The position numbers and the translations under genes were made by a program. Of a stretch of DNA of 36,456 bases, positions 25,883-29,973 are shown one piece after another (positions within the stretch are counted from its first letter, which is position 1; every line of letters begins with the position of its first letter). The notes under the pieces were generated by a model, which did not search any database, was not told where the DNA came from, and saw nothing but the letters and a program-made list of their open reading frames with translations. Source of the DNA: Zoogloea oleivorans (lineage in GTDB: Bacteria > Pseudomonadota > Gammaproteobacteria > Burkholderiales > Rhodocyclaceae); NCBI RefSeq assembly GCF_008107625.1, contig NZ_SDKK01000032.1:6469-42924 (forward strand). Reading direction: 5' to 3'.

Positions 25883-26233
25883 TCAGCTTTTCTTGAGCAG
25901 GGTGCCAAGCGCCGCGAACGGCGAATGGGTGGCGGCGCTGGCCGGGCTCTTGGCCGAGACGTTGCCCTGAGTGGCTTCAAGCTGGCGCTGGTGCTCGTTG
26001 TCGTGGCAGTACAGGCACAACAACTCCCAGTTGCTGCCGTCGGCCGGGTTGTTGTCGTGGTTGTGGTCGCGGTGGTGGACGGTGAGCTCACGCAGGTTGG
26101 CCGGGGTGAACTCGCGGGCGCAGCGGCCGCAGATCCACGGATAGATTTTGAGTGCCCTTTCGCGGTAGCCCTGGCCACGGGTTTCAGCGGCACGGCGGGC
26201 GTCGGCAACGAGGCGGTCGAGCTTCTCGGTCAT
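25883..26233 (-). CDS. HNH nuclease, YajD-like
   Basis: A 116-aa HNH-family protein. A CGRC pair near residues 35-38 and CLYCH further on are the zinc-binding cysteines. The catalytic segment is LTVHHRDHNHDNNPADGSNWELLCLYCHDNEH, written here in part; its HH and terminal NEH are the family signature. The C-terminal tail (about 85-116) is low complexity and ends LGTLLKKS. Its ATG overlaps the stop of the arginase-OAT fusion gene (ATGA), so it is probably translated by the same ribosomes. Its biological substrate is not known; YajD itself is uncharacterised. Confidence 0.9.
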   Translation of the reverse strand: MTEKLDRLVADARRAAETRGQGYRERALKIYPWICGRCAREFTPANLRELTVHHRDHNHDNNPADGSNWELLCLYCHDNEHQRQLEATQGNVSAKSPASAATHSPFAALGTLLKKS

Positions 26234-28359
26234 GGTTTGGCTCCGGAAAAACGGCTGGCAAGGTCGGTCAGCGCATCTTCGATGGTTTCGACAGCCCAGT
26301 CCAGTTCTGCCTTGGTGATGACCAGCGGTGGGGCGAAGCGCAGTACGCTTTCGTGGGTGTCCTTGGTCATCAGGCCGCGGGCGAGGAGGGCTTCGGCGGC
26401 GACGCGGGCGCCAACCCGTTGGGTGTCGAGTTCCATGCCGATCAGCAGGCCACGACCGCGCACCTCACGAATCAACGGGTTGTCGATGGCCTGCAGGCGG
26501 GCCAGAAAGTAGGTCCCCAGGGTTGCCGAGCGTTCGGCGAGCTTGTCGTCGGCGAGGACGCTCAGGGCTTCGGCGGCGACGGCGCTCGCCAGCGGGTTGC
26601 CGCCGAAGGTGGAGCCGTGGTCGCCCGGATGGAAAACCTGCATCACCGCTTCGTCGGCCAGGAAGGCCGATACGGGCAAAAGTCCGCCGCCGAGGGCCTT
26701 GCCGAGGATTACCCCATCGGGGCGCACGCCGTCGTGGTTGCAGGCCAGGATGTGGCCGGTGCGGCCGAGGCCGGTCTGCACTTCGTCGGCGATCAGCAGC
26801 ACGTTATGGGCGCGGCAGATCTCGGCGCAGCGGGCCAGCCAGCCGGCCGGCGGAATGTTGATGCCGCCTTCGCCCTGGATCGGTTCGAACAGGAAGGCTG
26901 CGGTGTTGGGCGTGATGGCGGCTTCCAGCGCGTCGGCGTCGCCGAAGGGAATGCTGCGGAAACCCGGCGGGAAGGGGCCGAAGCCGTCCCGGTACTGGGC
27001 TTCCGACGAGAAGCCGACGATGGTCGTCGAGCGGCCGTGGAAGTTGTTGTTGCAGACGATGATTTCGGCCTGTCCGTCGGTTACGCCCTTGATCTTGTAG
27101 GCCCACTTGCGGGCTGCCTTGATGGCTGTTTCGACGGCTTCCAGGCCGGTATTGACCGGCAGCGCCTGGTCGTAGCCGAGAAGGGCCGACAGGCGCTCGA
27201 GCATCAGCGGGAGGCGGTCGTTGGAGTACGCGCGGGAGGTCAGCGCAAGGCTGCCGGCTTGTTCCGTCAGGGCTTTCACGAGGCGCGGGTGGCTGTGGCC
27301 GAAGCTCACCGCCGAGTAGGCGCTCATCATGTCGAGGTAGCGCCGGCCCTCCACGTCCCACAGCCACACGCCTTCACCGCGGGTGAACACCACAGGCAGC
27401 GGCGCATAGTTGTGGGCGCCGTAGGCCTGTTCGCGGTCGCGCAACTGGGCCGTGGTGGGGCCGAGGGCGGCGGCGGCGAAGTCGGCCACCCAGCGGGCGC
27501 CGCTGCCGTCCTTGTCGCGCTCGGGCACGTATTCGACGACTTCGAAGCCGGCCAGGTCGGCGCAATTGCGCAGGCTGTGGAGGGCATCGGTGAGTTCCTG
27601 CGGGTCGAGGCCGTCGGGCACCAGGCAGGTGGTGCCGGGCAGCTTGGCGCAGTCGATGGCGTCCAGGTCGACCGATACGCCGAAGCCGGCGGTGCCGGTG
27701 CGGGCGATGCGCAGGGCATCGGCCAGCACGGCGGGCAGGCCGCGGGTTTTCACTTCGGGCATGAAGAAGATCTTCACGCCGAGCTTGTTGAGCAGCGTCA
27801 GCTCTTCGGGTTCCCACGAGCGGGCGCCGACGATGACTACATGGGCCGGGTCGAGGTGCGGGCCGGGCAGGCCGGTGAGGGTTTCGTCGCCGACCCCCAG
27901 CAGCGCGGCCATCGGCATGCCGTGGATGTTGCCGCTGTGGGTGGTGAGGGAGGTGTGGGCGTCGAGGTGGGCGTCGATCCAGATCAGGCCGAGCTTGCCC
28001 CGGGGCGCGAGGGCGCGGGCCACGCCGCGCCAGGTGCCGGCGCCGATGGCGTGGTCGCCGCCGAGGACGAGGGGAATGGCGCCTTCTTCGCAGACGCCGG
28101 CGACGGTATTGGCCAGGTCATGGAGCAGGGCGCTGACGGTGCCGAGCCGCTCGTTGAGAGGCGAATGGGGCGGCTTGGGGGCGGAAGGTTCGAGCAGGGC
28201 CTGCCAGTGGGCGGGGATGCCGAGCCGGCGCAGATGGGCTTCGAGGCCGAGGTTCTTGAGTGCGCGGGGGCCGCTGGCGGGTCCGAAGATGGGTGCGCCG
28301 AGGCAGGAGCCGACTCCGACGATATGGATCGGGCGGGATGGCGCGAACGGGGCAGGCAT
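26230..28359 (-). CDS. Arginase-ornithine aminotransferase fusion protein (709 aa)
   Basis: Two full enzymes lie in one frame. Residues about 10-300 are an arginase-fold ureohydrolase with all metal-site motifs: GGDH (His103), DAHLD (129-133) and SVDLDAID (Asp231, Asp233). Residues about 310-705 are a class III PLP aminotransferase closest to ornithine aminotransferase: DMMSAYSAVSFGHSHP, LPVNTGLEAVETA, FEPIQGEGG, LLIADEVQTGLGRTG, and ILGKALGGG with the PLP lysine at 554. The fusion would convert arginine to urea and ornithine, then to glutamate semialdehyde. Both catalytic sets look intact. AAGGAAG precedes the ATG. An HNH nuclease gene overlaps its stop. Substrate specificity of the first half (arginine against agmatine or guanidinobutyrate) is inferred from its partner domain. 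Confidence 0.92.
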   Translation of the reverse strand: MPAPFAPSRPIHIVGVGSCLGAPIFGPASGPRALKNLGLEAHLRRLGIPAHWQALLEPSAPKPPHSPLNERLGTVSALLHDLANTVAGVCEEGAIPLVLGGDHAIGAGTWRGVARALAPRGKLGLIWIDAHLDAHTSLTTHSGNIHGMPMAALLGVGDETLTGLPGPHLDPAHVVIVGARSWEPEELTLLNKLGVKIFFMPEVKTRGLPAVLADALRIARTGTAGFGVSVDLDAIDCAKLPGTTCLVPDGLDPQELTDALHSLRNCADLAGFEVVEYVPERDKDGSGARWVADFAAAALGPTTAQLRDREQAYGAHNYAPLPVVFTRGEGVWLWDVEGRRYLDMMSAYSAVSFGHSHPRLVKALTEQAGSLALTSRAYSNDRLPLMLERLSALLGYDQALPVNTGLEAVETAIKAARKWAYKIKGVTDGQAEIIVCNNNFHGRSTTIVGFSSEAQYRDGFGPFPPGFRSIPFGDADALEAAITPNTAAFLFEPIQGEGGINIPPAGWLARCAEICRAHNVLLIADEVQTGLGRTGHILACNHDGVRPDGVILGKALGGGLLPVSAFLADEAVMQVFHPGDHGSTFGGNPLASAVAAEALSVLADDKLAERSATLGTYFLARLQAIDNPLIREVRGRGLLIGMELDTQRVGARVAAEALLARGLMTKDTHESVLRFAPPLVITKAELDWAVETIEDALTDLASRFSGAKP

Positions 28360-28385
28360 GATCTTCCTTCGGATGCAGGTTGCAG

Positions 28386-28432
28386 GCGCCAGAGTGGCGC
28401 TGCTACGCCTGTTGGAGCGGCCGCAGCCGCTC
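28386..28432. repeat. Tandem hairpins, the second REP-like, between ubiB and the fusion gene
   Basis: The 78-base gap holds GCGCCA-GAG-TGGCGC (28386-28400) and GAGCGGC-CGCA-GCCGCTC (28415-28432), the latter preceded by GTTG. A GTnG foot followed by GAGCGGC...GCCGCTC closely resembles REP elements known from Pseudomonas and relatives. Neither hairpin has a T tract. Confidence 0.5.
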
Positions 28433-28437
28433 TTCGT

Positions 28438-29973
28438 TCAGTGCAGCCAGCGCCAGGCTTCGAGGGCGACGAGCGCGGCGAGGAGGGCGCCACCGGCTGC
28501 CAGCCAGCGCCCCTGGCGCTGGTTTTCGGCAGACAGGCGGAGGATGTCGGCGCGGGCCGTGTCGTCCCGCGGGTCGGACAGGGCCTGATGCACCAGGCGT
28601 GGCAACTGGGGCAGGGTGGCGGCCCAGGAGGGGGCTTCGTCCTTCATGTGACGCAGCAGCGCTCGCCAGCCCATCTGGTCGTTCATCCAGCGTTCGAGGA
28701 AGGGCTTGGCGGTTTTCCACAGGTCGAGGTCCGGGTCGAGCTGGCGCCCGAGGCCTTCGATGTTAAGCAGGGTTTTTTGCAGCAATACGAGTTGCGGCTG
28801 CACTTCCATCTCGAAGCGGCGGGCGGTCTGGAACAGGCGCAGCAGCGTCTTGCCGAAGGAGATGTCTTTCAGCGGGCGGTCGAAGATCGGCTCGCAGACG
28901 GCGCGGATGGCGCCTTCGAACTCGTCCACGCGGGTGTGGGCAGGCACCCAGCCGGCCTCGATGTGGGCCAGGGCGACGCGCCGGTAGTCGCGCTGGAAGA
29001 AGGCCAGGAAGTTGGTGGCCAGGTATTTTTTATCGGAATCGTTGAGGGTGCCGATGATGCCGAAGTCGAGAGCGATGTAGCGCCCGCGGGCGGGGCCGTC
29101 GGTGGCCACGAAGATGTTGCCCGGGTGCATGTCGGCGTGGAAGAAGCCGTCGCGGAAGACCTGCGTGAAGAAGATCTCGACGCCGGCCCGGGACAGGGCC
29201 TTGAGGTCGATGCCGTTGCTTTTGAGGGCATCCAGTTGTGAGATCGGGATGCCCTTCATGCGCTCCATCACCATCACGCCGGTGGTGCAGTAATCCCAGT
29301 GCACCTCGGGGACGACGAGCAGCTCGGAATCCTTGAAGTTGCGCCGCAGCTGCGAGCAGTTGGCGGCTTCGCGCATCAGGTCGAGTTCGTCGCGCAGATA
29401 TTTGGAAAACTCGGCGACGACTTCCCGCGGCTTGAGGCGGCGGCCTTCCGGCCACAGCTTTTCGAGCAGGATGGCGGCGGCGTCGAGGAGGGCCAGGTCA
29501 TGGGCGATGACCGGTGCAATGCCGGGGCGCAGGATTTTGACTGCCACTTCGGTGCCGTCCGGCAGCTCGGCGAAGTGCACCTGGGCGATGGAGGCGGAGG
29601 CGATCGGCTCGCGCTCGAAGCGGACGAAGACTTCGTCCACCGGCTTGCCGTAGGAGGCCTGCAACTGGGCGAGGGCTTCGGCGCTGGAGAAAGGCGGGAC
29701 ACGGTCCTGCAGCCGGGCCAGCTCTTCGGCGATGGCCGGCGGCAGCAGGTCGCGGCGGGTGGACAGCATCTGGCCGAACTTGACGAAGATCGGCCCGAGG
29801 GATTCGAGCGCCTGGCGCAGGCGGGCGCCGCTGGACTCGGTGTAGGTGCGGCGGAAGCGGGTGAGCCTGGCCAGCCAGGCCAGCCGACCGGACGGCTCGT
29901 TGGAGAGAATCATCTGGTCGAGGCCGTATTCCAGGCTGACGGAGATGATCTTGACGAGTCGGAAGAGGCGCAC
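28438..29973 (-). CDS. ubiB: UbiB, ABC1/COQ8-like atypical kinase for ubiquinone biosynthesis
   Basis: A 511-aa member of the UbiB/COQ8 family, an atypical kinase-like ATPase needed for ubiquinone synthesis at the inner membrane. The family KxGQ motif is seen as [16 protein letters not shown] (Lys65, Gln68). It continues with [34 protein letters not shown] (catalytic loop) and [12 protein letters not shown] (DFG). A C-terminal membrane anchor is present ([18 protein letters not shown]). The start is a GTG at 29973. It stands apart from ubiE and ubiJ, with which it is often clustered elsewhere. Confidence 0.95.

Follow-up and report, generated by a model that had tools for sequence, protein, structure and literature searches.

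One polypeptide with an arginase-family domain and an ornithine aminotransferase, conserved across Zoogloea

Arginase (RocF) and ornithine aminotransferase (RocD, here OAT) are usually separate proteins, as an earlier note on this locus stated and as the plasmid records we inspected bear out. These seven records, out of 31 plasmid records with one place covering at least 80% of the query, carry arginase and OAT as separate neighbouring open reading frames in 7/7 cases, including three that gave a single tblastn piece and yet hold two frames. Adjacent rocF and rocD genes are also annotated in records from Skermanella, Rhizobium and Parabacteroides. The protein described here is predicted to catalyse the same reactions with members of the same families (PF00491 and PF00202), but on one chain instead of two, and its arginase half is 31–33% identical to those RocF proteins and belongs to another clade (E183/H130, described below).

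A second system for comparison is AgrE of cyanobacteria, described in PMC8262935 as a bifunctional arginine dihydrolase/ornithine cyclodeaminase. AgrE resembles the fusion as predicted in removing the guanidino group and then consuming ornithine on the same protein, but it is built from other families and gives ammonium, CO2 and proline rather than the predicted urea and glutamate semialdehyde (PMC8262935). Dihydrolase and cyclodeaminase domains of the AgrE type are absent from the fusion, in which Pfam finds only PF00491 and PF00202. The third comparison is with unfused arginases of the same clade and signature that lie beside an OAT gene in gammaproteobacterial, Legionellales and Parachlamydiales MAGs, in Ralstonia sp. 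SET104 and in others; such a gene pair, however, makes two proteins, and in Ralstonia SET104 (L142) and a Burkholderiaceae MAG (L138) the OAT gene comes first, unlike the order within the fusion. In the open-access literature on the fusion, its enzymes or Zoogloea, we found no arginase–OAT fusion described, although this covers open-licence papers only and is hence no proof. The fusion is conserved and real, with known parts in an arrangement of which that literature gave no description.

The fusion gene occupies 26230..28359 on the minus strand of the window, that is, of the whole 36,456-nucleotide stretch of Zoogloea oleivorans DNA that was analysed. It consists, as the earlier note had stated, of one uninterrupted frame of 709 codons plus a stop, with its ATG at 28359, its stop at 26230–26232 and no internal stops; a purine-rich gaaggaag read 5′ of the ATG (28363..28370, minus strand) is likely the ribosome-binding site. 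Scanning for promoters and terminators around the gene gave nothing useful. The domain search proposed in that note (Pfam, E 0.001) places an arginase family and a class-III aminotransferase on one chain: PF00491 at residues 13–297 (1e-49; 27469..28323, minus strand) and PF00202 at residues 313–697 (6e-123; 26269..27423, minus strand; the OAT domain, also TIGR01885), with no other domain in the 709-residue product. The motifs GGDH, DAHLD and SVDLDAID, claimed from the first reading, are all found in it. Reading 26230..28359 on the plus strand was rejected as giving only the mirror image of a GC-rich gene. An open frame of 1029 codons (26152–29241, plus strand) lies opposite the fusion and a portion of the gene upstream of it, and is probably a mirror effect of the high GC content.

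The Z. oleivorans genome (G000) holds one copy of the fusion, and the fusion was found in one open frame in 22/22 other Zoogloea genomes, at 76–94% identity, two of these copies (in G005 and G010) being truncated at contig ends. The closest relatives come from named Zoogloea loci, and the two halves of the G009 and G012 fusions match those of Z. ramigera and Z. dura exactly. In a sample of the order it is present in 12/399 genomes (own included), spread over 9 genera and 5 families, and G025 adds a tenth genus; the 35 fusions that we aligned comprise 23 from Zoogloea and others, 10 genera in all. In a sample of the phylum (398 genomes) it was found in its own genome only; the remaining matches listed (E 1e-110 or better) are OATs that stand alone or have a separate arginase next to them. 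A search for named loci with the arginase half, limited to the top 80 of at least 554 relatives and so no census, shows 14/80 to be fused: five from Zoogloea, two each from Aromatoleum and Azonexus, one each from Sterolibacterium and Oryzomicrobium, and three from less precisely named MAGs. The taxonomic survey that had been called for finds the fusion in all Zoogloea genomes sampled and in other genera of the order. An assembly or sequencing join is ruled out, since the fusion recurs across many genomes, including those of other genera. In Oryzomicrobium (L165, 4543–8022) the open frame that holds the fusion extends some 470 codons further upstream, which may indicate a longer protein or be due to chance.

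The C-terminal half has the features of an OAT. It scores 515 bits against the OAT equivalog TIGR01885 (cut-off 378.4) and 551.7 bits against the other OAT equivalog, NF003145, which is below that model's cut-off of 656; its best solved relative by sequence is Bacillus anthracis RocD (3ruy), with human OAT third in the list. Lys554 (26698..26700, minus strand), correctly named beforehand as the PLP lysine, aligns with human OAT Lys292. Together with it, Y318, Y348, F440, R443, E497, D525, Q528, G582, T584 and R674 are invariant in 35/35 aligned fusions; the human counterparts by alignment of Y318, Y348, F440, R443, E497, D525, Q528, K554, G582, T584 and R674 are, in this order, Y55, Y85, F177, R180, E235, D263, Q266, K292, G320, T322 and R413, among which we take Y55, Y85, F177, R180, E235, K292 and R413 to be the PLP lysine and the ornithine-site residues. 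A Foldseek search gave aminotransferases only among the 50 matches listed, and was uninformative on the arginase half. Some genomes with no match to the arginase family (G187, G352, G285, G056 and G373) have OATs 64–67% identical to the OAT half of the fusion (L053–L055, L033 and L057), whose role there may lie elsewhere than with ornithine from arginase.

The N-terminal half is clearly of the arginase family, with 169.9 bits against PF00491 (cut-off 22) and Bacillus caldovelox arginase (1cev, E 3e-41) as its best solved relative. Against the RocF equivalog TIGR01229, however, it reaches 170.4 bits where the cut-off is 227.6; six further clade members score 138.5–202.0 bits, all under the cut-off, in contrast to two classical RocF controls at 272.8 and 307 bits. 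The original proposal of an arginase fused to an OAT thus stands in that domains, residues, trees and neighbourhood place an arginase-family domain and an OAT on one chain, but the first half is not a standard RocF, by this score and by the His and Glu that replace Asn130 and Asp183. The catalytic residues are well preserved: the metal ligands H101, D124, H126, D128, D232 and D234 (human numbering) and Glu277 are kept in 125/125 compared sequences, the ligands also in 32/32 fused rows, while catalytic His141 is conserved in 124/125 and position 137 is Ser or Thr in 125/125. Ser137, His141, Glu186 and Glu277 are all four present in the window protein, and 32/32 fused rows have Ser or Thr, His, Glu and Glu at these places.

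The recognition residues of RocF, Asn130 and Asp183, are by contrast absent from the window protein. By alignment, His135 (27955..27957, minus strand) takes the place of Asn130 in the α-carboxylate loop, and Glu183 (27811..27813, minus strand) that of Asp183, the α-amino contact, whose charge it retains. Glu at this position is found in 78/78 clade members (32 fused and 46 unfused) against 0/47 sequences outside, and His at the Asn130 position in 75/78 against 1/47; in the fused rows the counts are 32/32 for Glu and 31/32 for His. The clade has a branch of length 1.16 with an SH-aLRT of 100 in a quick arginase tree, made from the same 125 arginase rows as the residue counts. Thus the Glu183/His130 signature marks an arginase clade, of which the seven members scanned are all below the RocF cut-off. 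In the Zoogloea rows the loop past the last metal ligand is changed as well, DP being absent and Cys standing at the place of Thr246. Besides the fusion, the Z. oleivorans genome encodes an unfused arginase that likewise belongs to the E183 clade (G000:C69:56372-57268; L004, L113) and is 42% identical to the first half of the fusion.

PMC9224512 and PMC5648838 describe the Asn130 loop of human arginase as holding the α-carboxylate and Asp183 as holding the α-amino group, and a 27-fold increase in Km is reported for Asp183 changed to Asn; according to PMC9224512, Asn130 changed to Asp lets the human enzyme accept agmatine besides arginine. Since this clade has His at the same place, one might suppose that the first half is agmatinase-like, or else a catalytically dead regulatory domain, with the OAT alone at work. 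We regard this as improbable, because the agmatinase model gives the arginase half 57 bits against a cut-off of 174.3, every fused row keeps the metal ligands and both halves are under purifying selection. The median pairwise dN/dS is 0.27 for the arginase half and 0.21 for the OAT half (78 pairs from 13 Zoogloea genes), with single arginase-half pairs of up to 0.56. Moreover, putrescine, the product of agmatine, has no α-carboxylate to offer to the conserved R443 of the OAT half, presumably the arginine that meets the α-carboxylate of the substrate. That it works like an arginase is the most plausible interpretation, given a partner domain that seems made for ornithine, the unfused clade genes adjoining OAT and the low agmatinase score; with the first half under the RocF cut-off and His and Glu at the two recognition positions, arginase is its most likely activity rather than an established one.

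In Zoogloea the genes run in the order UbiB-type gene, fusion, HNH nuclease, and neither neighbour is an arginine gene. The upstream ABC1 kinase of UbiB type (28438..29973, minus strand) is found at 20/23 Zoogloea loci and also in Aromatoleum, the three loci without it (L016, L021 and L029) being ones that end at contig edges; the downstream HNH endonuclease (25883..26233, minus strand) is found at 22/23 (not L028), and in the window its ATG overlaps the stop of the fusion (ATGA). A FlgO-family gene (PF17680; 24338–24937, minus strand) lies near the fusion. The neighbourhood survey used six probes and flanks that differ in length among loci. At the 21 non-Zoogloea fusion loci, a sodium/solute symporter-like gene lies beside the fusion in four (L030, L044, L126 and L127; the two scanned score 164–167 bits against TIGR00813, under its cut-off of 184), and gltD lies upstream in three (L048, L049 and L134), with gltB before gltD in G398 (L090). 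With gltD there, the breakdown of arginine would be tied to glutamate synthase. Outside Zoogloea, the gene after the fusion encodes a PrkA-type serine protein kinase in L030, L048, L049, L052 and L134; in L128 and L165 such a kinase gene comes after a dehydrogenase.

That dehydrogenase, an aldehyde dehydrogenase encoded immediately 3′ of the fusion and on its strand, is present at 6/21 non-Zoogloea loci (L031, L045, L046, L050, L128 and L165), and in L156 one lies divergently beside the fusion; it may be a glutamate-semialdehyde dehydrogenase. The four that were scanned nevertheless match best not the P5C (pyrroline-5-carboxylate) model but NF050084, the L-piperidine-6-carboxylate dehydrogenase of the lysine pathway (cut-off 730), three passing at 743, 763 and 743 bits and that of L128 falling below at 713. 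Such matches, along with the changed substrate-loop residues, are what one would expect if the substrate of the first half were a different guanidino amino acid, such as homoarginine, from which the pair made lysine and then piperidine-6-carboxylate. This is highly improbable in our judgement: the aminotransferase half scores above the cut-off of the OAT model TIGR01885 and keeps all 11 OAT residues checked, the Zoogloea gene has no such dehydrogenase as a neighbour, and dehydrogenases of the piperidine-6-carboxylate type can accept homologous semialdehydes as side substrates.

For arginine itself, 14 of the 35 fusion genomes were searched for other routes, and neither AstA (0/14) nor ArcA (0/14) was found in them. 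Matches over the cut-off of the P5C-dehydrogenase model TIGR01238 (PutA-type) are present in 11/14, as is urease in 11/14. The three genomes below the P5C cut-off (G057, G100 and G167; best 325–344 bits) all have a dehydrogenase adjoining the fusion, and G127 has both. With neither AstA nor ArcA there, the fusion, joined in some genomes (for example G000 and G371) by an unfused arginase of the clade, is the clearest arginine-breakdown route among those looked for.

How the two halves came together is suggested by their unfused relatives. In the tree, 9/46 unfused clade arginases have an OAT gene as neighbour; L154 makes a tenth, its OAT being truncated where the contig ends. The distance between the genes could be read in 7/8 loci with arginase followed by OAT (L151, L157, L168, L181, L185, L190 and L197; L154 has too little OAT), and, for the nearest candidate start, lies between an overlap of 44 nt and a gap of 16 nt. 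Such pairs would be the natural precursor: the fusion is probably the result of joining in frame an arginase gene and the nearly overlapping OAT gene that came next. The fused label needs six changes in the quick arginase tree, where starred branches alone force two, and two changes in the OAT tree (rows with more than 50% identity and more than 300 aligned residues); near-duplicates and cut rows (18 loci) were kept out of both trees, as were 23 copies fetched a second time over a wider span. These six and two changes could reflect several independent fusions, but one clade of fused rows is rejected in neither tree (p 0.175 for arginase; p 0.525 for OAT, as good as the free tree). The trees are compatible with one origin as well as with several. 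Two exceptions among the fused rows look like later losses of one half, which probably happened occasionally after fusion: L081 (1968–2837) is a lone arginase in the arginase tree, has close to it a UbiB-like stretch and a gene related to the symporter-like one of Aromatoleum, and would have lost the OAT half; L054 is a lone OAT in the OAT tree, in a genome (G352) without any PF00491 match, and would have lost the arginase half.

The junction itself comprises residues 277–313 (27421..27531, minus strand). Between Glu276 and Gly314 there are 37–40 residues in 35/35 aligned fusions. In 47 unfused clade arginases the tail past that Glu is 20–53 residues long (24–28 in 23 of them), and in 22 OATs adjoining an arginase the nearest in-frame Met lies 2–25 residues before the Gly position (11–16 in 15). 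Since the tail of an unfused arginase and the head of an unfused OAT together come to about the length of the junction, no linker has been added; the separate linker of 10–15 residues proposed earlier thus falls away, and a long flexible linker is likewise ruled out by this comparison. The AlphaFold model (pTM 0.66) has a helix at 286–299 and then one at 303–313 at the junction, and with block-mean pLDDT of 36–69 over residues 301–360 it is too unsure to place the two sites. The near-constant junction length is compatible with close packing and is no proof of a channel.

It is, in our estimate, slightly better than an even bet that both halves are active and that the fusion fixes only equal amounts and joint expression, with ornithine leaving freely; this is a narrower version of the bifunctional reading, and the two are not mutually exclusive. 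Nothing in these data points to a tunnel, the model being of low confidence at the junction and the OAT N-terminal region, and the apparent single losses in L081 and L054 also suit free release. On the other hand, a junction held to so narrow a range while the unfused tails vary so widely suggests a constrained geometry. Direct hand-over of ornithine (channelling) is a fair guess; as the earlier note proposed, it would commit arginine away from polyamine or citrulline routes.

Taken together, these data make it quite probable that the protein is a bifunctional arginase/OAT converting arginine into urea and glutamate semialdehyde. We infer both activities and the order of the steps as follows. 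The N-terminal Mn-dependent ureohydrolase would cleave L-arginine to urea and L-ornithine, and the C-terminal PLP enzyme would transfer the δ-amino group of ornithine to 2-oxoglutarate, yielding glutamate and glutamate-5-semialdehyde/P5C; P5C would then be oxidised to glutamate by a PutA-type or neighbouring aldehyde dehydrogenase. In favour are the conserved frame, the OAT residues and metal ligands, selection on both halves and the clade arginases adjoining OAT, as well as the downstream aldehyde dehydrogenases, the absence of AstA and ArcA, and the P5C-dehydrogenase and urease matches. Against it count the RocF score below cut-off, the two changed substrate-binding positions, the changed Zoogloea loop (no DP, Cys at Thr246), the second clade arginase in the window genome, the Zoogloea neighbours, the dehydrogenases that best match the piperidine-6-carboxylate model, and the six label changes in the arginase tree. 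Naming the fusion after one half alone would hide the other step.

Ornithine is a branch point of arginine, proline, polyamine and citrulline metabolism. A bolder and rather unlikely proposal is that the clade, by exchanging Asn130 for His and Asp183 for Glu, rebuilt its amino-acid-recognition loops, and that in Betaproteobacteria a linker-free union with OAT in a fixed geometry lets ornithine pass between sites in a mixed oligomer. As separate enzymes, arginase forms trimers or hexamers and OAT forms dimers. If this is true, the protein would be a self-contained machine from arginine to glutamate semialdehyde, with ornithine kept from the free cell pool. The fusion is a natural, genus-wide test of whether joining the maker of ornithine to its consumer can keep it from mixing, with the unfused sister genes as controls.
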